The notes under the pieces are model-generated. The model made no database searches. It was not told the origin of the DNA and saw only the letters and a list, made by a program, of their open reading frames with translations. Of a stretch of 64,000 nucleotides of DNA, positions 5,410 to 16,444 are shown one piece after another (positions within the stretch are counted from its first letter, which is position 1; every line of letters starts with the position of its first letter). Source of the stretch: Lentisphaera profundi (GTDB taxonomy: Bacteria; Verrucomicrobiota; Lentisphaeria; Lentisphaerales; Lentisphaeraceae). The translations under genes and the position numbers were made by a program. The DNA lies in contig NZ_CP117812.1 in NCBI RefSeq assembly GCF_028728065.1, positions 1,302,001 through 1,366,000 on the forward strand, read 5' to 3'.

Positions 5410-6954
5410 TTAATTACTTCTCCCACTTTTTTTGAATTGTTCGAGCTTGGCTTTTAATTCATTGACAAGTTCTGGATGCTCTTGATAGAGGTTGCTTGTT
5501 TCTTTTGGGTCAGAGTCAAGATTGTAGAGTTGAACTGGATCTTTAATGTTTATACCTTTTGGTACTAAGTGCTGGAGTCGTTTGCCTTTATAGTTATTTC
5601 CACCGGAACTAGGATGGTCAAGGTATTTCCAAGGACCTTTGCGAATAGCTAGATCCAAAGAAATAGTTTGGGTGAGCATATATTCTCTGATCCCTGTTTT
5701 TGTACCGAATAAAACAGGTGACATGTCGTGACTATCTTCTGCACTATTTTTCGGTAGCTTATAGTTTACTAGGCTTGCACTGGTGGCCATAATATCGCAA
5801 AGAGATATGAGTTCATTGCTTATAGTAGGTTTAATTTGTTGTGGCCAAGAGATGATGAGTGGTGTGCGGTGACCACCTTCCCATTGATCGCGTTTGAGTC
5901 CACGCCAAGGAGCGGCACCATCGTGTTGATAGCTTGAGCGCATTTTCAATGCTGTGGGTACTTCGGGACCATTATCACTACAGAAAATTATAAGTGTATT
6001 TTCGAGTACATGACAATCTTCCAAAGTCTTGATAAGTTCTCCAACGATGTGGTCCATTTGAAAGATGAAATCGCCATGGGGACCAGCTTGAGTTTTTCCT
6101 TGGAATTGTTTAGCTGGGAAAGAGGGCAGGTGGACGGCCTGCATGGAGTGAAAAAGAAAAAAAGGTTTTTTTGTTTTTGATTCGACGTGATTTTTGATAA
6201 AATTTTGACTTTTTTGCAGAAATACCATGTCGACTTCTTCATGATCAAAGTTATCGGCAATCATGCCGACTCGGCAATCGTGACTATAATCGTGCTTTGG
6301 AAGCTGGCTACGATTCAAGACCTTTGTTGGGGGTAGAGGGATGCTATCATTTTCTATGTAGGCATATAGGTAATCAGTTGTTGGGCAACTCACGGTGCCG
6401 TAGAAATAATCGAAACCACGATTAATGGGACCATCAGGAATAGGACGTGAGTAATCAATCTGCTGGATACCTTTCAGCCTTTGATCGGTAATACGCTTGC
6501 CATTCTTATCGTAAAAAGTCATACCTATATGCCATTTGCCGATACAGGCAGTTGAATAGCCTTTTTCTTTTAGCATTTGCGCTAGAGTTAAACGTTTTTC
6601 CTCTATGAGGCAGGGACCGCCAGCTCCAGTAAATACGCCCTTCATTCCAGTGCGAAACTGCATTCTACCCGTGAGTAGACTATAACGGCTAGGGGTGCAT
6701 ACTGTGGATGGACTATGGGCATCGGTAAAACGCATGCCTTGCTCAGCGAGTTTATTGAGGTTTGGGGTGGGAATGATTGACTTTGAGTTATAACACTGCA
6801 GGTCGCCATAACCCAAATCATCGGCTAAAATTAATACGATATTTGGATTTTCGCTGTTTGCCACAAGCGACTTCGTTAATCCAAAGATTAGAAATACGAC
6901 AATGCTTTGTATATGGAAAGCACTCGTACAATTTTTTTTAAAATTAGTAATCAT
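5410..6954 (-). CDS. Secreted arylsulfatase A-like sulfatase
   Basis: 514 residues. After a hydrophobic leader (about 15-33) come the metal site LILADDLGYGDLQCY, the formylglycine motif C-T-P-S-R at Cys86 with the extended SLLTGR, IGKWHIG, HSMQAVHLP, and the CSDNGPE metal site. The downstream GLKRDQWEGGHRTP is typical of the arylsulfatase A/N-acetylgalactosamine-6-sulfatase branch. That differs from the sulfatases on either side, so the locus covers several linkage types. It stands alone, with 211 bp and 328 bp of noncoding DNA beside it, and is probably a separate transcription unit. Whether the substrate is a galactosamine- or galactose-sulfate cannot be decided by eye. Confidence 0.93.
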   Translation of the reverse strand: MITNFKKNCTSAFHIQSIVVFLIFGLTKSLVANSENPNIVLILADDLGYGDLQCYNSKSIIPTPNLNKLAEQGMRFTDAHSPSTVCTPSRYSLLTGRMQFRTGMKGVFTGAGGPCLIEEKRLTLAQMLKEKGYSTACIGKWHIGMTFYDKNGKRITDQRLKGIQQIDYSRPIPDGPINRGFDYFYGTVSCPTTDYLYAYIENDSIPLPPTKVLNRSQLPKHDYSHDCRVGMIADNFDHEEVDMVFLQKSQNFIKNHVESKTKKPFFLFHSMQAVHLPSFPAKQFQGKTQAGPHGDFIFQMDHIVGELIKTLEDCHVLENTLIIFCSDNGPEVPTALKMRSSYQHDGAAPWRGLKRDQWEGGHRTPLIISWPQQIKPTISNELISLCDIMATSASLVNYKLPKNSAEDSHDMSPVLFGTKTGIREYMLTQTISLDLAIRKGPWKYLDHPSSGGNNYKGKRLQHLVPKGINIKDPVQLYNLDSDPKETSNLYQEHPELVNELKAKLEQFKKSGRSN

Positions 6955-7282
6955 TTTGTTTTTATTAAATCCCAGTAATTAGTGCGAAATGGAGAAGCTA
7001 GTTAGCCTGATTTTTTATTAGATATCATATTTAGTAGGTGCTATCCGCCAAAGATGTAAAAGCTAAACTTACTAAGCTTAGGCGATTTTGTAGTTAGGTG
7101 ATTTCATATTTGAAGTCCATTAAAAGTTAAATGGGCTCAAAATTATTGTATTATGTTTGAGAAAATGATTTGGCCCACATTTTAAATGTTAGACAATGAA
7201 CTTTTTGACTTGTTATAGGAAACTTAAATTTTTTTATGATAAGCTAAACATAATTGATGTCTAAATGCTTAAATTACAGCTC
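6955..7282. other. Intergenic, AT-rich, presumed promoter of the 5410-6954 sulfatase
   Basis: 328 bp without a credible gene on either strand. I see no strong hairpin, repeat or RNA gene. It must hold the terminator of the sulfatase operon that ends at 7283 and the promoter of the sulfatase that starts at 6954. Confidence 0.5.
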
Positions 7283-8821: not shown

Positions 8822-10255
8822 TTATTTTTTCTTAGCGGGTTTATTTAAGCCTTCTTGTTTGAGGCGAAGATCAAATTGGATTCGGAGTTTTTCGAGTACT
8901 GGTCTGTACTCTGGGTTTTTGCTAAGGTTTTTAAATTGCTTCGGATCCTTATTCATATTATAGAGTTCCTCACTCATATCTTTATAACGTATATAAGTGT
9001 AAGTGTCGGTTCTAATGGAATAACCTTTAGCGCTAGAGAGTAGGGATAGCGCTTCATTGCGAATCGTTTTATTATTGTGCTCCAATAGCGGGAGGAAACT
9101 TTTTCCTTGAACTTCTTTTGGTGTCTCAATGCCTAGGAGCGTTGTTAAACTTGGATAAATATCGACTAACTCAGTTAGAGCTTGGGTGCGACCGGCTTTC
9201 ATCCCGGGGACGTAAATCATGAGGGGGACTCGAGTGACTTCTTCATGTAGATTTTGTTTTTGCCAAAAGCCGTGCTCACCTAGGTGGTAACCATGATCAC
9301 TTAAAAAGACGATAGCAGTACTCTCTCTCAGGCCGAGTCGTTCGAGTTCATCAAGAATACGCCCCACTTGTTCATCCATAAATTGTACTGTGGCATAGTA
9401 AGCAGACCACATGCGTTTTTGGTTGTCAATATATTTGCCAATGGGGTTACTCGAATTCATAGTCTTGGCACGTCCCATTTTGGGAATATCAGCTAAATCA
9501 TTTTTATAGATTTCTGGAAGTTCAATTTTTTCCCAGGGGTAGGGCTCAAAATATTGCTTGGGAGCAACATTGGGGTAATGGGGACGGACTAGACCCGTGG
9601 CGATAAAAAAGGGCTTATCTTTATGTTTATTGAGCAGTTCTATAGTCTTGCTGGCACTTTTATAATCGGGTTGATCGGAACCATCCCCCTCATAACTCAC
9701 TGAAACGAACATCCTGTTGGGCATCTTTGTAGATTCACGATGCTCTAACTTGTCGGTAAAAATATTTAAATTGAGACATGCGTAATCTCCTGGAGTATGA
9801 GCTTCCCGTCCCGAAGAATTAAAACGTTCGGTCCATGAACTCGCGATATCTTGGCCATCTGTTCCATTAATAATATCGTAGGGGACTCGCATGTGGTAAA
9901 TCTTACCTACACGCGCAGTATACCAAGCATTATTTTTAAAGTGCTCTGCGAGGTTGGTTCCCAGGGAACCTCGGTAGCGACTATGCATAAAAGAAGTACG
10001 CGACGGGCCGCAGACGACCCCTTGGCAATAGGCGCGGTCAAAGACTAGACTTTGTTCAGCAAGTTTATCTATGTTTGGAGTTTTGCAGACTTTATCTCCA
10101 TAGGTACCGAGCACACTGGCTTTTAGGTCATCGGCGACAATGAAAAGAATGTTTTTTATGTGTGCTTTCTTTGGCTCGGCTTCTAAAGAGAGACTCATCA
10201 CTAAAAAAGTTAACAGACTTATGTTTAACTTAAGTAATTTAATAGAGATATTCAT
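8822..10255 (-). CDS. Secreted iduronate-2-sulfatase-like sulfatase
   Basis: 477 residues with an N-terminal signal segment (about 5-26). The motifs are LFIVADDLKASVLGTYG, C-G-P-S-R at Cys82, VGKIYHM, LVRPHYPN and LSDHGYHLGEHGFWQKQN followed by HEEVTRVPL. Those last blocks are diagnostic of the iduronate-2-sulfatase-like branch (choline-sulfatase relatives are less similar). Its first third is almost identical in DNA to the partial gene at the left edge. Its ATG overlaps the stop of the truncated sulfatase upstream (ATGA at 10255-10252). A 6 bp gap leads to the next sulfatase, giving a three-gene unit. A Lys-rich tail ends the protein. Confidence 0.93.
   Translation of the reverse strand: MNISIKLLKLNISLLTFLVMSLSLEAEPKKAHIKNILFIVADDLKASVLGTYGDKVCKTPNIDKLAEQSLVFDRAYCQGVVCGPSRTSFMHSRYRGSLGTNLAEHFKNNAWYTARVGKIYHMRVPYDIINGTDGQDIASSWTERFNSSGREAHTPGDYACLNLNIFTDKLEHRESTKMPNRMFVSVSYEGDGSDQPDYKSASKTIELLNKHKDKPFFIATGLVRPHYPNVAPKQYFEPYPWEKIELPEIYKNDLADIPKMGRAKTMNSSNPIGKYIDNQKRMWSAYYATVQFMDEQVGRILDELERLGLRESTAIVFLSDHGYHLGEHGFWQKQNLHEEVTRVPLMIYVPGMKAGRTQALTELVDIYPSLTTLLGIETPKEVQGKSFLPLLEHNNKTIRNEALSLLSSAKGYSIRTDTYTYIRYKDMSEELYNMNKDPKQFKNLSKNPEYRPVLEKLRIQFDLRLKQEGLNKPAKKK
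9867..10135. repeat. Recently duplicated sulfatase segment, copy 2
   Basis: Partner of bases 1-269, about 95% identical by hand count and gap-free. It codes for roughly residues 40-130 of the 8822-10255 sulfatase, including the C-G-P-S-R active site. The match stops sharply where the two signal peptides begin, as expected for gene conversion or a partial duplication. Confidence 0.85.
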
Positions 10256-10683
10256 TTTCTAATGCTACCAGCTTTATTTGATAGAGTCATTTTTAGACTT
10301 TTAGATAAGCCTGTGACTATTTCTGGGGAGTTCGAATACCCCCTTTGATGTTTGTTGTTCGCTTCAATGTTATTTGAGGGAGTCATTGTGGCTTTGTCAC
10401 CATGGATATAAAAGCAGGAAGGAAGGACTAGAGAGGCATGCATAGCAAAAAATGAATCAAAGCCGCAGGTAGCGGGGCCAGCTCTGAGCTCTTGAGTGTG
10501 ATCAGCTGGATTATAAGAAGAGAGCTCGCCATAGCCCATGTCATCGGCAAGGATGAAAACGATATTGGGTTTATCCCTTGCAGCTGCGGAGGTCGCAAAG
10601 AGCGCAAGTATTAGGAAAAGAGCAGCCTTAAATCCTGCTGCGATTGATTCTTGACATCTGTGTAGTAAAAAAATACCTAGCAT
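10252..10683 (-). pseudogene. Internally deleted sulfatase remnant
   Basis: 143 codons with an ATG and stop, but not a functional sulfatase. A signal peptide is followed by the sulfatase start DKPNIVFILADDMGYGELSSYNP. The sequence then jumps to what looks like a mid-protein region (CGFDSFFAMHASL, SCFYIHGDKATMTP, RGYSNSPEIV) found well downstream of the active site in arylsulfatase-type enzymes. The C-x-P-S-R motif, GKWH block and C-terminal metal site are all missing, so a segment has been lost, and the C-terminus is absent. Its stop overlaps the next sulfatase's ATG (ATGA), so its translation may still serve to couple that gene. A TGTTACA box lies about 90 bp upstream. Confidence 0.8.
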
Positions 10684-11018
10684 GATAAGAGCCTTTACTT
10701 TTTAAATTTCGTTCTTTTTGATTAACAAGTCCTTAAGCTTTGTTACTCTATAAGACAAGAAATATAATGCTTTGTTACAGAACACTTGACGAACTCTAGA
10801 TATATATTTTCTACTCTGCGTTTAATTCTAATAGAGATTTTAATGGAGTTGTATGAGCTATCTATGCACTTGATCCATCGTGTAGATAGAAGGGTGTGGA
10901 TAAACGATCCTCGATGTAACAGAAAATTCACTGTTGGACAAAGGTCATTCTTTAGGGGAACTTGCTTAAGCGCTAAGAGTGAATAGTTTTTGTTTCAAAT
11001 ATTTGTTAGGAGGGAGTG
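10684..11018. other. Divergent intergenic region between sulfatase operon and RlaP-like genes
   Basis: About 335 bp with no credible gene; small open frames on both strands lack start sites and family features. It must contain two divergent promoters. A TGTTACA box lies at 10773-10779 and a related TGTTACT at 10741-10747, both ahead of the minus-strand sulfatase operon. A strong AGGAGGG ribosome-binding site at 11008-11014 serves the plus-strand gene. Confidence 0.5.
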
Positions 11019-12104
11019 ATGATTACAAAATTAGAAGATCTATATCAAGAGCGAGAGAAGTACCTGCTGTTTGAAACCCTTGTAGGCTCTCGAGCTTACG
11101 GAACTTTTCATGCGGAGAGTGACGAAGATATCAAAGGCATTTTCATTCTGCCTCCAAGTCATTACCTTATGGAGAAAACCCCGCTTGAACAAGTGTCGGA
11201 TGAGCGTAATGATAAGGTTTATTATACTCTTAAGAGATTCATAGAGTTGGCGTCTAATGCGAATCCAAATATCATCGAGATGCTCTTTATGCCAGAAGAT
11301 TGTATTCGCTTCCAGAGCGACTTATTGAAACCTTTGTTTGAGGCGCGACAAGTCTTTATTACCACGCAAGCTTATGCTTCGCATATTAACTACGCACAAG
11401 CTCAGATAAAAAAAGCTCGTGGCAAAAATAAATGGGTGAATAATCCTCAAGAAGTAAAAGTTCCTGAGCGACAAGATTTTTGCTGGTTTATCAAATCGGA
11501 TGATAAGGCTACGCCTTATCGACCGAAATCTTTGAAAGATACTGATATAGATCTTGCTCAATACCATGTGAGTTCAGTAGAGCATAGTCAGGGACTCTAT
11601 CGCCTCTATCATTATGGATCAGATGCTCGCGGTGTTTTTCGTGGGGGTGAACTTGTTTGCGAATCAATCCCTAAAGAAGAGGAAAAAACTCATTGCCGAG
11701 GCTTACTCTTATTTAATGAAGCGGCGTATGAATGTGCTAAGCGCGATCACACAAATTATTGGCAATGGCGTGATAATCGTAATGAAACTCGTTGGCAAGG
11801 TCAAGAACAGGGCAAGCGTGATTATGATGCTAAAAACATGATGCATACTTTTCGCTTATTATTTTCGGGCCAAAATATTTTAGAAAAAGGCGAACCTTTA
11901 GTACGTTTTGAAGGAGAAAATTTAGACTTCCTGAAAAAGGTTCGCGATGGTTTTTTTAACTACGATGAGCTCATCAAGAGAGTAGAAGATAAGTTAAACG
12001 ATTTTTCATTAGCCTATGGGAAATCTACTTTAGCCGATTCAATCGATGAGGAAAAACTCCAAAATTTATTAGTTGAAATAACAAAGTCTTGGGAAGGAAG
12101 ATGA
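11019..12104 (+). CDS. RlaP-type nucleotidyltransferase (Pol beta superfamily, COG3541-like)
   Basis: 361 residues starting at ATG 11019, 4 bp after an AGGAGGG ribosome-binding site; a GTG just before it is too close. The N-terminus carries the nucleotidyltransferase signature: LVGSRAYGTFHAESDEDIKG, with the Gly-Ser pair followed by an Asp-x-Asp metal site (about residues 24-43). NPNIIEMLF follows, as in the RlaP (RNA-repair-associated polymerase-beta-like) family. The rest is helical and family-typical, with CWFIKSDD and a later YWQWRDNRNETRW. Members are linked to RNA repair operons with RNA ligase, but no ligase is visible here. The biochemical substrate is not established. It overlaps the next gene by 4 bp (ATGA). 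Confidence 0.8.
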   Translation: MITKLEDLYQEREKYLLFETLVGSRAYGTFHAESDEDIKGIFILPPSHYLMEKTPLEQVSDERNDKVYYTLKRFIELASNANPNIIEMLFMPEDCIRFQSDLLKPLFEARQVFITTQAYASHINYAQAQIKKARGKNKWVNNPQEVKVPERQDFCWFIKSDDKATPYRPKSLKDTDIDLAQYHVSSVEHSQGLYRLYHYGSDARGVFRGGELVCESIPKEEEKTHCRGLLLFNEAAYECAKRDHTNYWQWRDNRNETRWQGQEQGKRDYDAKNMMHTFRLLFSGQNILEKGEPLVRFEGENLDFLKKVRDGFFNYDELIKRVEDKLNDFSLAYGKSTLADSIDEEKLQNLLVEITKSWEGR

Positions 12105-12862
12105 AAGAGCATATAAAACTAACACTTACAGAATTAGCGAAAGAACGACAAATTAATATTTTATACGCATGCGAGAGTGGCAGTAGGGCATGGGGGTTTG
12201 AATCACCTGATAGTGATTGGGACGTCCGCTTTATTTATGCACATTCACTCGAATGGTATTTGAGTCTCGAAAATAAAAAAGATACGATTGATGAAATGCT
12301 TCCTTTGGAACTTGACCTTGGTGGCTGGGAAATCCGTAAGACTTTACGTTTATTTGCGGATGGTAACCTGGCCTTATTCGAATGGATTAATAGTCCCGAA
12401 ATTTATTTTAAAAATGAAAGTTTCCACCAGTCATTAAAAGCATTAATTTCACAATACTTTAATCCCATCAAAGGTATGAATCATTACCTTTCAATGGCAC
12501 GTAAAAATGTAGAGAATCACATATTGGAAAACAGCGTAAAAATCAAAAAGCTCTTTTATATTTTACGCCCTCTATTAGCTTGTGAATGGATTGAGGATTT
12601 CTCATCTATGCCTCCTACAGAATTTTCTTTACTCATGCGAGAAAGCAAGTCTATGCCAGAGGATATTCAGCGACAAGTAAACGAATTTTTGAAGCAAAAA
12701 GAAACCGCAGCAGAAGGTCATCTAGTGGAACTAGAAATTAGCCTTGTTAATTGGTTTAATGAGCAAGTCACTCATTATGAGATACTTATGCCAAAACTAA
12801 AACCTAGGCCTAAATCTAACTGGCAAGAGTTAAATAAATTAATGGTAGATTTCGTGAAATAA
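12101..12862 (+). CDS. Second RlaP-type nucleotidyltransferase (YcgL-like)
   Basis: 253 residues. The ATG at 12101 overlaps the stop of the previous gene (ATGA) and follows GGAAGG at spacing 4; an upstream in-frame TTG at 12089 is less likely. The nucleotidyltransferase signature reads ACESGSRAWGFESPDSDWDVR (about residues 21-41), giving Gly-Ser and Asp-x-Asp. Then comes DLGGWEIRKTLRLFADGN, then LFEWINSPEIY, as in Bacillus YcgL-like proteins. It is only distantly similar to its upstream partner, so the pair looks like two different subfamilies, not a tandem copy. Coupled translation suggests they work together, perhaps adding or removing nucleotides on RNA ends; this is inference. Confidence 0.8.
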   Translation: MKEHIKLTLTELAKERQINILYACESGSRAWGFESPDSDWDVRFIYAHSLEWYLSLENKKDTIDEMLPLELDLGGWEIRKTLRLFADGNLALFEWINSPEIYFKNESFHQSLKALISQYFNPIKGMNHYLSMARKNVENHILENSVKIKKLFYILRPLLACEWIEDFSSMPPTEFSLLMRESKSMPEDIQRQVNEFLKQKETAAEGHLVELEISLVNWFNEQVTHYEILMPKLKPRPKSNWQELNKLMVDFVK

Positions 12863-12985: not shown

Positions 12986-13699
12986 TTACTGCCTATATTC
13001 TAACTCATTTTCTTGGAAGTAGTCATCAACAAACAAAGGGAATGCACTTAAAATTGAGACAGAATTTAATGGTTGAATAAAATTAATCACTTGTTGCTCA
13101 AATATTGAACTTTGTCCGATAGAATTTTTAGTGGTAAGGGCGTAATCCTTATTAACAATCCAATTAGCTTTTTTTAGATGTTTTAAGCACATTTCATTCC
13201 AGTCATCTTTCGATAATGACATCAAGTCATTATAAGTACCTAATTCACTCACGTAACTTTTGTATTTTTTATTTTTTGCGATTTCCCAAGTCTTATTTTG
13301 GAATAGGTCAGTTTCTTTAATGGCCTCGACCATAGGGTAATTTAAATAAAGACGACCATTTTCAGTTTCATTATCAAACATGGATAGTAGTTCTGAAATT
13401 TTTTGAATGTCGGCACGTGTGTCATGGCCATCATGATCAAAAAATAAATATATTTCACCAACATCATCACGATCTAAATCTTTTAGGTCGTCAGGTAGTA
13501 TATTTTGCTCTCTTAATATCTCAAATACATCTGCATGTTCATCTCGTTTTATCACATCGTAAAGAGAGTAGATATTACTCCCGAAAACATTGTGAATAAT
13601 ATTTGAAGTGTCATCAGGAAAGAAATGCTCTTGTAGGCAATTACTTATCTTTGGTTCAGTTTTTAAACCTTCAAAGATAAATAATATTTTATAACTCAT
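12986..13699 (-). CDS. RloB-like TOPRIM nuclease of a two-gene defence system
   Basis: 237 residues. The N-terminus ILFIFEGLKTEPKI matches the RloB pattern (hydrophobic strand, Glu-Gly, Thr-Glu-Pro) of TOPRIM-fold nucleases. The second acidic site is EIYLFFDHDGHDT, with Asp-x-Asp, and NYPMVEAIKE supplies a further conserved Glu. These are the metal ligands expected of the TOPRIM fold. The gene overlaps the upstream ATPase by 11 bp. ATPase followed by RloB/DUF4435-type nuclease is the layout of AbiL (AbiLi-AbiLii) and PARIS (AriA-AriB) phage-defence systems. At 237 residues it is close to RloB length. Base composition is visibly AT-richer than the sulfatase genes nearby, suggesting transfer. 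The defence role is inferred. Confidence 0.72.
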   Translation of the reverse strand: MSYKILFIFEGLKTEPKISNCLQEHFFPDDTSNIIHNVFGSNIYSLYDVIKRDEHADVFEILREQNILPDDLKDLDRDDVGEIYLFFDHDGHDTRADIQKISELLSMFDNETENGRLYLNYPMVEAIKETDLFQNKTWEIAKNKKYKSYVSELGTYNDLMSLSKDDWNEMCLKHLKKANWIVNKDYALTTKNSIGQSSIFEQQVINFIQPLNSVSILSAFPLFVDDYFQENELEYRQ

Positions 13700-14825
13700 T
13701 AAACATACCAGCTTTAAACATCTTCTGATTGTTATGAGCTTTTCGTAAATCTTTTTTAGTTAATTTATGGAAAGGATTAATTTCTTTTTCAGTCATGTTA
13801 AATAAACAATCGGGACGCATTAAATCATTGTTCATTAAGTCCGTATTATGAGTTGTGAATACAGCTTGAACACCATCTTCATTTTTTAATAAATCAATAA
13901 GTTTTTTAGCTAAAATATAATGATAGAAAGCATCAAATTCATCAATATAAATGAAAGTAGCGCCATATTCTTTAATATGTCTTTTTAGAATTAACAATGA
14001 TACATATAAATAGCCAAGTGATAATGTTCCTGTAGAAGCTACATCAAAAAAACTAATAGCTTTTGAATCATAGTCAAAGGCTATGTGTGGATCTTCTTCA
14101 CCTACATCAATGGTTGTTAATGAACATTTTATATTACATGAATTAAGAAAACTTTCGAATTTTTGTAGTCCATCGGTATCTTCAAGAATATATTTTGATG
14201 CTAAAGATGTTTTGTAGCTCATTGTTTTGTGCGTGTCGACAGTTTTTATCATTCTCATATAGTTGACAAAATTTATGAAACGATTAAAAGTTTTATTTTC
14301 TTGATTGTCATCATCTAATACAGTGTTGTTAAGAATAAACTTAACGAATGATAGCGATTTTCCTGCCATATCAGTTTTTAGACTTTCTGCACCTTTAAGT
14401 AGAACTTTCCCGTTTGGATCAGCTCTCTTATCTATGTGTATAACTTCTTTATTATTAATAAGGATTTTTTCCGCAATCACTTCATCAGCATTCTCTTTCC
14501 AATACTCGTAAATGAGAGTGTCACCATCAAAATAAAATTCGTATGAAAATTTAGCATATTTTTCATTAGATAATGCATTGATATAGTTTTTATATAAATC
14601 TCGTTTTTCATGAAGGTTCCAATCAGTTAAATGGAACTGGATATCCATTATAGCGCAGCCTAAATTCGATTTGCCACATCCATTTACGCCATATATAAGA
14701 GCTTTATAAATGGTGTCATCTTTTATACATTCTGGATTAAATTCAAAACTTTTAGAGTCTGTAAAGTCAAGTGTAAATTTATCTTTAAAACCTTTAAAGT
14801 TAGTAACTGAAAATTTTCGTAGCAT
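13689..14825 (-). CDS. AAA/ABC-type ATPase of a two-gene defence system (AbiLi/AriA-like)
   Basis: 378 residues. The N-terminal FSVTNFKGFKDKFTLDF is typical of OLD/RloA/SMC-like ATPases. Walker A is YGVNGCGKSN (about residues 46-55), the signature-like motif is ASTGTLSLGY, Walker B is TFIYIDEFDAFYH, and the switch His is in FTTHNTDLM. No nuclease domain is fused; that activity is in the overlapping downstream gene. PARIS AriA and AbiLi share this shape. The start lies 10 bp from a perfect 11-bp-arm inverted repeat, so expression is probably tightly controlled. AAGG precedes the ATG by 7 bp. Low GC sets it apart from its neighbours. Alternatives are a Septu- or Gabija-like ATPase, but the partner type argues for AbiL/PARIS. 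Confidence 0.78.
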   Translation of the reverse strand: MLRKFSVTNFKGFKDKFTLDFTDSKSFEFNPECIKDDTIYKALIYGVNGCGKSNLGCAIMDIQFHLTDWNLHEKRDLYKNYINALSNEKYAKFSYEFYFDGDTLIYEYWKENADEVIAEKILINNKEVIHIDKRADPNGKVLLKGAESLKTDMAGKSLSFVKFILNNTVLDDDNQENKTFNRFINFVNYMRMIKTVDTHKTMSYKTSLASKYILEDTDGLQKFESFLNSCNIKCSLTTIDVGEEDPHIAFDYDSKAISFFDVASTGTLSLGYLYVSLLILKRHIKEYGATFIYIDEFDAFYHYILAKKLIDLLKNEDGVQAVFTTHNTDLMNNDLMRPDCLFNMTEKEINPFHKLTKKDLRKAHNNQKMFKAGMFNEL

Positions 14826-14834
14826 CTATTTACC

Positions 14835-14859
14835 TTAGCAATTATGATATAATTGCTAA
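14835..14859. promoter_or_regulatory. Perfect inverted repeat (operator or RBS-sequestering hairpin) of the defence operon
   Basis: Arms TTAGCAATTAT (14835-14845) and ATAATTGCTAA (14849-14859) are perfectly complementary around a 3-base centre. It ends 10 bases before the ATG of the ATPase gene and abuts its ribosome-binding site. It could be a repressor operator or an RNA hairpin hiding the RBS. Confidence 0.75.
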
Positions 14860-14892
14860 GAACTTAGGTGTAAAATACAGCTTATCAAGGTT

Positions 14893-14913
14893 TGCCGTAA
14901 AAAAACTACGGCA
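14893..14913. repeat. Small inverted repeat between sulfatase and defence operon
   Basis: TGCCGTA (14893-14899) and TACGGCA (14907-14913) flank an A-rich 7-base loop. There is no run of T directly after it on either strand, so it is at best a weak terminator. Its role is unclear. Confidence 0.4.
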
Positions 14914-14986: not shown

Positions 14987-16444
14987 TTATGGCAAAGTCA
15001 GTGGGCCGGGGTGATTGATTTGATCCGCGCTTTTTGATTGACCCGGCCATTCGGCATGGGGGTTTCTATTTTTGCTTGTGCCTGCAGGAAGAACTACACC
15101 ATCAATTATTTTGGGAGGCGCATGGCGGTTAGGTGTGGGATTAGTTGGGATGCTATCGCCGGTTTGTTCGGTCCATAACTGAATCATTTTTCGCGCTTGC
15201 ATTAGCTGTGTTTTGTATTCAGGGTTTGAAGCGAGGTTATTTAGCTGATTAGGATCTTGACTGAGTTTAAAGAGTTCTTCCTCGGGGCAGGGATTAGCAA
15301 AAACTTGACTCTGCTTATCGGTGGTTTTTCCCGCTGCATGTGCTTGCCAAAGTTCTAAGCCGGCGGGATATTTGGTGTCGGACTCATAGGCGAGGTTGGG
15401 CTGATTTGGGTAGTTATTTTTGATATAGACAAAATCGCCAAATCGCACCATGCGCTCGTGATTTTTGTAGACGTGCCAATTGTGTTCAGAAAAAATGACT
15501 TGGCGAACGACTTGCTGCGGGTCTTTGAGGATGGGGAGAAAGCTTTGCCCCTGTATATTTTGGGGTATGTCAATGCCAGCTAATTCGAGGCAGGTGGCAC
15601 TGAGATCGATTGAGCTTATTAAGCTTTTGCTGACAGCGGGTTTTTTGATTACTTTTGGGAAATGGATCACCCAAGGCGTTTTAATTCCGCTATCATAGAG
15701 GCGAGATTTGTCGCGAGGGAAAGGGCGGCCATTATCGGAAGCTACAATGATCATTGTATTGTCGAGTACTCCTTGTGTTTTAAGTTCTTCCACAACTAAG
15801 CCAATGAAATGATCGAAACGACTGACTTCGTGATAGTATTGCGCTAGATCCTTACGGGTCTCAGGGCCATCATACATGTAAGGGGGGACAATGACTTCGT
15901 TTTCTTGATAAGTGGGAGCATGGTCACTGATCTGCCAATCGCGGTGAGCATCGCTTGCAGCGTACCAAAAGAAAAAGGGCTTGTCTTTGGGACGATCTTT
16001 GAGGTTTTGAACCCAATCGGCTTCATTGCCAGGCCCACCACCTTTAGTGATCTTATCAAAAGCGCGGTCTTTTTTACCAAACATATGATTCTTGCCCGAA
16101 AGTATGGTGTAGTAACCCGCTTGGCGCAATAATTCGGGGAAGCGAATTTGGGAATTAGGTAGCTTCATATGAAGTTCTGGGGCACCAGTATTGTGTGGGT
16201 AGCGCCCAGTAATGATACTGCATCGACTGGGGCTACAACTACTGGTAGTTAAGTAGGCATTGTCAAAACGCATGCCTTTCGCTGCGAGCGCATCGACGGC
16301 TGGAGTTTTGATACTAGGGTGACCATAAGCCCCGAAGTCACTTTGGGAGATATCATCAGCAATAAAAAAGATAAAGTTGGGTTTGTCTTGTGCATGGGCA
16401 AAGAAGATAAAGCTAAAGAATAGGGTCAATCTAAGAGAAATCAT
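14987..16444 (-). CDS. Secreted N-sulfoglucosamine sulfohydrolase-like sulfatase
   Basis: 485 residues from the ATG at 16444, which gives a clean signal peptide ending FFAHA; an upstream in-frame start at 16480 would add 12 residues before it. The motifs are FFIADDISQSDFGAYG, C-S-P-S-R at Cys70 followed by CSIITGRYPHNTG, SGKNHMFG (Lys and His with Asn where others have Trp), and DAHRDW. Then ASDNGRPFPRDKSRLYDSG precedes the TPWVIHFP strand. This set is that of heparan N-sulfatase (sulfamidase) relatives. In marine PVC bacteria such enzymes act on sulfated polysaccharides; N- versus O-sulfate specificity cannot be assigned here. It is a single gene downstream of the glycosidase-like lipoprotein, 108 bp away. 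Confidence 0.9.
   Translation of the reverse strand: MISLRLTLFFSFIFFAHAQDKPNFIFFIADDISQSDFGAYGHPSIKTPAVDALAAKGMRFDNAYLTTSSCSPSRCSIITGRYPHNTGAPELHMKLPNSQIRFPELLRQAGYYTILSGKNHMFGKKDRAFDKITKGGGPGNEADWVQNLKDRPKDKPFFFWYAASDAHRDWQISDHAPTYQENEVIVPPYMYDGPETRKDLAQYYHEVSRFDHFIGLVVEELKTQGVLDNTMIIVASDNGRPFPRDKSRLYDSGIKTPWVIHFPKVIKKPAVSKSLISSIDLSATCLELAGIDIPQNIQGQSFLPILKDPQQVVRQVIFSEHNWHVYKNHERMVRFGDFVYIKNNYPNQPNLAYESDTKYPAGLELWQAHAAGKTTDKQSQVFANPCPEEELFKLSQDPNQLNNLASNPEYKTQLMQARKMIQLWTEQTGDSIPTNPTPNRHAPPKIIDGVVLPAGTSKNRNPHAEWPGQSKSADQINHPGPLTLP

Follow-up and report, generated by a model that had tools for sequence, protein, structure and literature searches.

A candidate defence operon encoding an ATPase and a nuclease

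Within the window, by which we mean the whole stretch of 64,000 nucleotides of the Lentisphaera profundi genome analysed here, two minus-strand genes, A and B, overlap by 11 nt, and two different inverted repeats lie upstream of them (Table 1). The product of A matches the PADLOC profile PDC-M12A (PDLC04426) across residues 1-377 (E 1e-127) and that of B matches the profile PDC-M12B (PDLC04432) across residues 1-235 (E 3e-82); the same profiles match every one of the aligned relatives, 49 for A and 47 for B. Both proteins match full-length, gene order and overlap are identical, and membership of the PADLOC candidate defence system PDC-M12 is, on these profile matches, near certain. A profile check proposed in the first-pass annotation of this DNA thus returned defence families and not a housekeeping ATPase. 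The conserved inverted repeat that we describe below belongs to no profile, and a literature search found no publication on PDC-M12, its function or its operator, nor any experiment on its anti-phage activity. No RNA families or tRNAs were found within the window.

Table 1. Features of the locus, in window coordinates
Feature	Position	Strand	Description
Gene A	13689-14825	-	378 aa; PDC-M12A, SMC/Rad50-like ABC ATPase (AAA_21), probable sensor/controller
Gene B	12986-13699	-	237 aa; PDC-M12B, RloB-like TOPRIM nuclease, probable effector
Operator-like element CCGTA-GTTTTTT-TACGG	14895-14911	-	17 bp; conserved in relatives
Element with full 7-bp arms, TGCCGTAGTTTTTTTACGGCA	14893-14913		about 67 nt upstream of ATG
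Perfect palindrome CTTAGCAATTAT-GAT-ATAATTGCTAAG	14834-14860	.	probably in 5' UTR; lineage-specific
Possible -10 (TATTTT)	14872-14877	-	17 nt downstream of element; from relatives' spacing and sequence
Alternative boxes TTGATA / TAAGTT	14883-14888 / 14861-14866	-	from relatives' spacing and sequence
Apparent sulfatase remnant	10252-10683	-	143-aa ORF
Two overlapping RlaP-type nucleotidyltransferase genes	11016-12862	+	PF10127

In A we recognise a Walker A motif (G46-VNGCGKS), an ABC-signature-like S264-TGT, a Walker B motif (FIYIDEFDA, with E296) and a His-switch (H326). These motifs had been named before, and in an alignment of 49 relatives their key residues proved to be invariant or nearly so. 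The protein matches Pfam AAA_21 (E 3e-15; 57.5 bits, against a cut-off of 27), and its AlphaFold model (pLDDT 90) finds Rad50/SMC heads and retron PtuA by Foldseek at E 1e-10 to 1e-11. The source genome also encodes a second, distant ATPase of the superfamily of A (L032, G000:C2:287798-288943; E 4e-12), where the conserved repeat is absent.

The motifs of B (E10-G11...E15, D88-x-D90 and Y121-P122-M123-x-E125) are conserved among 47 relatives, so that a lack of shared active-site acids, named in the first-pass annotation as a ground for refutation, is not seen. Its model (pLDDT 91) has the beta-alpha order of a TOPRIM fold, and no homologue of solved structure was found by fold at E < 0.09. Pfam RloB (PF13707) is matched by 15 of the 47 relatives (best 6e-6), but the window's own B falls below the cut-off and no match occurs in its genome; in an hhalign comparison EGxKTE, DxD and YPMVEA line up with the TOPRIM acids and the SNPxFE-like motif of RloB with E 3e-4, at a probability of only 39%. 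In alignments of relatives the mean column identity is 52% for A against 35% for B. Profile and structure searches recognised no DNA-binding domain, HTH included, in either protein, and among extra domains that might reveal a DNA binder we saw only DUF6965, as an extension at the C-terminus of one nuclease homologue (the B gene of L059, at 6106-7188).

Relation to known defence systems

The pair had been called AbiL/PARIS-like, and of this description the AbiL part, together with the assignment to defence (as a catalogued candidate), stands, whereas the PARIS part does not. A matches the AbiLi profile (PDLC02335) over its length, as do all 49 relatives, with an E of 1e-35 that is much weaker than for PDC-M12A, and AbiL has the same arrangement of an ATPase followed by an RloB-type nuclease; the AbiLii profile, however, has no match in the window's B, and nine of the 47 relatives match it (best 2e-5). 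PARIS is likewise a tandem of SMC-like ATPase and TOPRIM nuclease, A falls within its ATPase definition (AAA_15/AAA_21), and one Vibrio phage copy of PDC-M12 is annotated as Paris_II__AAA_21. But the AriA profile matches A far more weakly (E 3e-16) than does PDC-M12A, and PARIS detection is defined by a DUF4435 nuclease (PMC9122126); DUF4435 (PF14491) is absent from B, from its own genome and among the matches listed for the 47 relatives. We therefore reject membership of PARIS and consider that the pair probably works like AbiL/PARIS, yet is not PARIS. With RloA/RloB the apparent likeness lies in motifs of B (EGxxTE, DxD, [SN]xPxxE), although its score stays below the RloB cut-off; with the retron/Septu protein PtuA it lies in the fold that A shares with PtuA and Rad50, but neither a reverse transcriptase nor an HNH partner is present here.

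A conserved inverted repeat upstream of gene A

We fetched 105 loci by protein similarity only and then compared their upstream regions, so that the element was not selected for. The inverted repeat CCGTA-(A/T)7-TACGG stands in exact form before PDC-M12A in 81 of them, and at least nine of its ten half-site bases are present in 93 of the 105 loci, against none of 483 control windows, and in 57 of 64 clusters formed at 70% A identity; a good site is missing in 12 loci. All 81 exact loci have a spacer of 7 (spacers of 0-14 were tested, and a spacer of 6 was seen in one locus only), and the spacer nearly always consists of a run of A or of T, A-rich or T-rich interchangeably. The element lies at a median of 57 nt from the start codon, and 900 kb of the same loci held only one further copy, a chance match. 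It is found in many phyla, on plasmids and in phages, with the same half-sites and 7-bp spacer in Bacteroidota, Bacillota, Pseudomonadota and Verrucomicrobiota; that a 17-bp element should be near-invariant across phyla, while the proteins drop to only about 30-45% identity, points to built-in regulation. The existence of a conserved cis element upstream of PDC-M12A is very well supported by this comparison of upstream regions.

The genome of origin holds a single perfect copy, the one at this locus, which argues against a host regulon. In 388 genomes of the phylum the pattern in loose form was met about 24 times, and its homopolymer-tract versions are nearly all at PDC-M12 promoters; as only scattered mixed-A/T matches were seen elsewhere in the phylum, we rejected a host regulon for the element. 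We also searched viral sequences, where 92 stretches with CCGTANTTTTTTTACGG were found and 80 loci analysed. Eleven of these 80 precede M12A and the rest resemble scattered phage coding sequence, and an association of the element with other viral genes was rejected too.

The flanks of the element prefer TTG/CAA on either side independently. At the first flank position, pairing (0.41) hardly differs from expectation (0.40), and the excess at the second to fourth is modest, so that hairpin covariation in the flanks is little or none. Flanks that pair no more than independence predicts suggest that a dimer reads the element as double-stranded DNA and that it does not act as a hairpin. In Bacillota-type loci the element is followed by a second site, which is degenerate and displaced downstream by exactly 22 bp, or two helical turns (z 4.6, n=8); outside these loci no such tandem site was seen. 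In a few single lineages (L040, L075, L076, L077) the element has been extended, perhaps by template switching, into perfect palindromes with arms of 13-24 bp and unrelated flanks.

A private palindrome close to the start codon

The first-pass annotation had singled out another repeat, a perfect inverted repeat shortly before the ATG of gene A, as operator-like. This repeat exists and is perfect, but its arms are of 12 bp and not 11, around a loop of 3 nt, and it is separated from the ATG by 8 nt and not 10. No second copy was found in the 5.46-Mb genome, allowing up to 3 mismatches, and 100 shuffles of the window produced no comparable repeat; as RNA it would form a hairpin of -14.7 kcal/mol (z = -3.45) with AAGG at the 3' foot. 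Being genome-unique, unmatched in shuffles and of such a fold score, the palindrome is not due to chance. It is, however, absent from the same-genus copy (L002, 68% identical) and from the other relatives, and we rejected it as a conserved operator because it is private to this genome. The operator-like element that is conserved is a different inverted repeat, CCGTA-(A/T)7-TACGG, which the first-pass annotation had not listed, and this element, not the palindrome, is the more important feature of the locus.

Promoter context

In Bacteroidota-type promoters the -7 box TANNTTTG begins 14-19 nt past the element, and the -10-like boxes of Gammaproteobacteria are spaced similarly; the TATAAT-like boxes of Bacillota-type loci begin 29 nt past it, with TTGA at 6 nt. 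These fixed distances place the element over the -35/-33 region or immediately upstream of it, where it would not be transcribed from that promoter. The main site of Bacillota-type loci is upstream of -35, a location that would suit activation as well. A consensus promoter scan of the window's own promoter gave no match, and this promoter is weak by consensus.

Acquisition and mobility of the gene pair

Across 102 loci no genes recur but A (in all 102) and B (in 96); no third conserved gene or regulator was found among them, in keeping with the earlier remark that no separate regulator is visible. The pair had also been judged AT-rich and inserted, and both judgements hold: GC is 0.29-0.31 at 13-15 kb, against about 0.35-0.47 around it, and the neighbouring sulfatase region matches that of G209, the closest genome of the genus, at 93% identity as far as window position 14991, beyond which the similarity is lost. 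PDC-M12 was not found in G209, and other sulfatase genes occupy its place. Together these observations lead us to conclude that the pair was probably acquired next to a sulfatase gene, a conclusion well supported by the genome comparison. The 143-aa ORF at 10252-10683 looks like a decayed sulfatase, intact (484 aa) in G209 (L361 8787-10241), and may be a scar left when the island came in by gene replacement. The two RlaP-type genes converge on the defence pair; they have no match in G209 and are 68% identical to genes on another contig of G315, and so may represent a second mobile module.

The pair also travels on small replicons. E. coli plasmids of 4.0-4.4 kb carry it (nine E. coli records), and mob/rep/rop functions are all that is annotated next to it there; these plasmids have a recognisable site with a second partial site 19 bp downstream, overlapping the -10; a Pectobacterium plasmid and a 10-kb Vibrio filamentous phage carry it with perfect sites. 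In related phages (L121, L123-L126) it lies between HNH-like and terminase-like genes (names judged from sequence), as a moron in the packaging region.

A putative self-regulating defence operon

The locus bears on how defence systems made of an ATPase and a nuclease escape self-toxicity when they encode no regulator. Our best reading is that the conserved element is the cis operator of PDC-M12, putatively bound by its own A and/or B proteins, and that its role is most likely negative autoregulation. An element nearly unchanged across phyla, with no regulator gene travelling along, suggests that expression of the defence proteins may be under their own control. As only A and B are recurrent, the binder would be A, B, their complex or, less likely, a host factor of one specificity in all phyla; autoregulation by A/B is likely from these comparisons, and A, being the more conserved, would be the better candidate.

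We propose that A is translationally coupled to B and that the pair works much as AbiL and PARIS do. A would restrain or load B until infection is sensed, when B would be licensed to cut nucleic acid (perhaps RNA, by analogy with AriB) and the phage would be stopped, as homologues suggest. A dimeric A or an A-B complex may occupy both half-sites and repress the promoter, which would keep the toxic effector low without a separate regulator. Towards this whole explanation, of an anti-phage PDC-M12 system whose operator is repressed by an A dimer or by A-B, we lean with modest conviction. More speculative, and to us doubtful, is a version in which the SMC/Rad50-like A is itself both sequence-specific operator repressor and infection sensor: a trigger taking it off the DNA, such as a DNA-mimic phage protein, would free the nuclease and derepress the operon, and AbiL-like relatives would do likewise with their own diverged palindromes.

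There are precedents for such control in other defence operons. In the AbiE and RptR operons, inverted or direct repeats in the promoter are bound dimerically and a toxic defence operon is repressed, for AbiE by negative autoregulation (PMC7319586) and for RptR with an overlap of the -10 (PMC12255303). Both have a recognisable DNA-binding protein, whereas PDC-M12 encodes none beyond its ATPase and nuclease; the promoter inverted repeat of AbiE-like autoregulated operons is, however, a feature conserved in PDC-M12 too.

Other readings of the upstream repeats

The absence of a recognised DNA-binding domain from A and B would be accounted for if a widespread host protein, such as a nucleoid protein or global regulator, bound the element and silenced incoming defence genes, with A and B taking no regulatory part. 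Architectural proteins favour A/T tracts, and the centre of the element is such a tract. We nevertheless consider this unlikely, since the same half-sites and spacer recur in four phyla that share few regulators of one specificity, and the element is single-copy in its own genome with no regulon in the phylum. The element could also be an activator site, at which, once infection has occurred, the promoter would be switched on from a class-II-like position by an A-B complex or by a signal derived from the phage: relative to the inferred start site its centre falls at about -36 to -50, and several Gammaproteobacteria have weak -35 boxes with an extended -10 (TGnTATAGT). In most phyla, though, the element and the -35/-33 overlap, and a protein bound there usually obstructs polymerase; toxin-type operons are usually under negative autoregulation (AbiE, PMC7319586; RptR, PMC12255303), which makes activation decidedly unlikely.

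Very long perfect arms in a few loci (16 bp in L040, 20 in L075 and 24 in L076), and a terminator-like pattern scored on the plus strand, might suggest that the element acts as a nucleic-acid structure (RNA hairpin, cruciform or terminator) and is a substrate or trigger of the nuclease. Rad50-like ATPases are able to recognise DNA hairpins, so that such recognition is conceivable here. This reading is nonetheless very improbable: in most flanks pairing does not exceed what the columns predict, A-rich and T-rich tracts stand in for each other, and a position upstream of the inferred start site means that the element would not be transcribed from there. Least credible to us is that the 27-bp palindrome is the operator, or an RNA hairpin hiding the ribosome-binding site of A. 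Its arms are too perfect for chance and its predicted hairpin ends in AAGG, but as relatives, even the copy within the genus, do not have it, it can be at most a local addition.

Returning to autoregulation through the conserved element, this reading names the exact DNA to test, for which a 4-kb E. coli plasmid such as NZ_CP023904 offers a compact handle, and the element is a DNA signature by which PDC-M12 systems can be found or correctly delimited.

Palindromes of sister AbiL-like operons

CCGTA..TACGG was seen upstream of none of 61 sister AbiL-like ATPase-RloB operons. Other perfect palindromes occur there instead, with arms of at least 10 in 9 of the 61 against 0.3 expected, and control stretches inside a gene of these operons had no palindromes with arms of at least 10. 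Some may instead terminate transcription from genes upstream. The pattern still agrees with operators that each system makes for itself and that drift apart, and hints that the whole AbiL-like group may be self-regulated with diverging operators. Upstream of the ATPase gene in L014-L018, L021, L023, L027 and L270-L349 we also observed, in AbiL-like ATPase-RloB operons, other recurrent elements, among them TTTGCAAA repeats and TTTTTGGNNNNNNNCCAAAAA-type palindromes.
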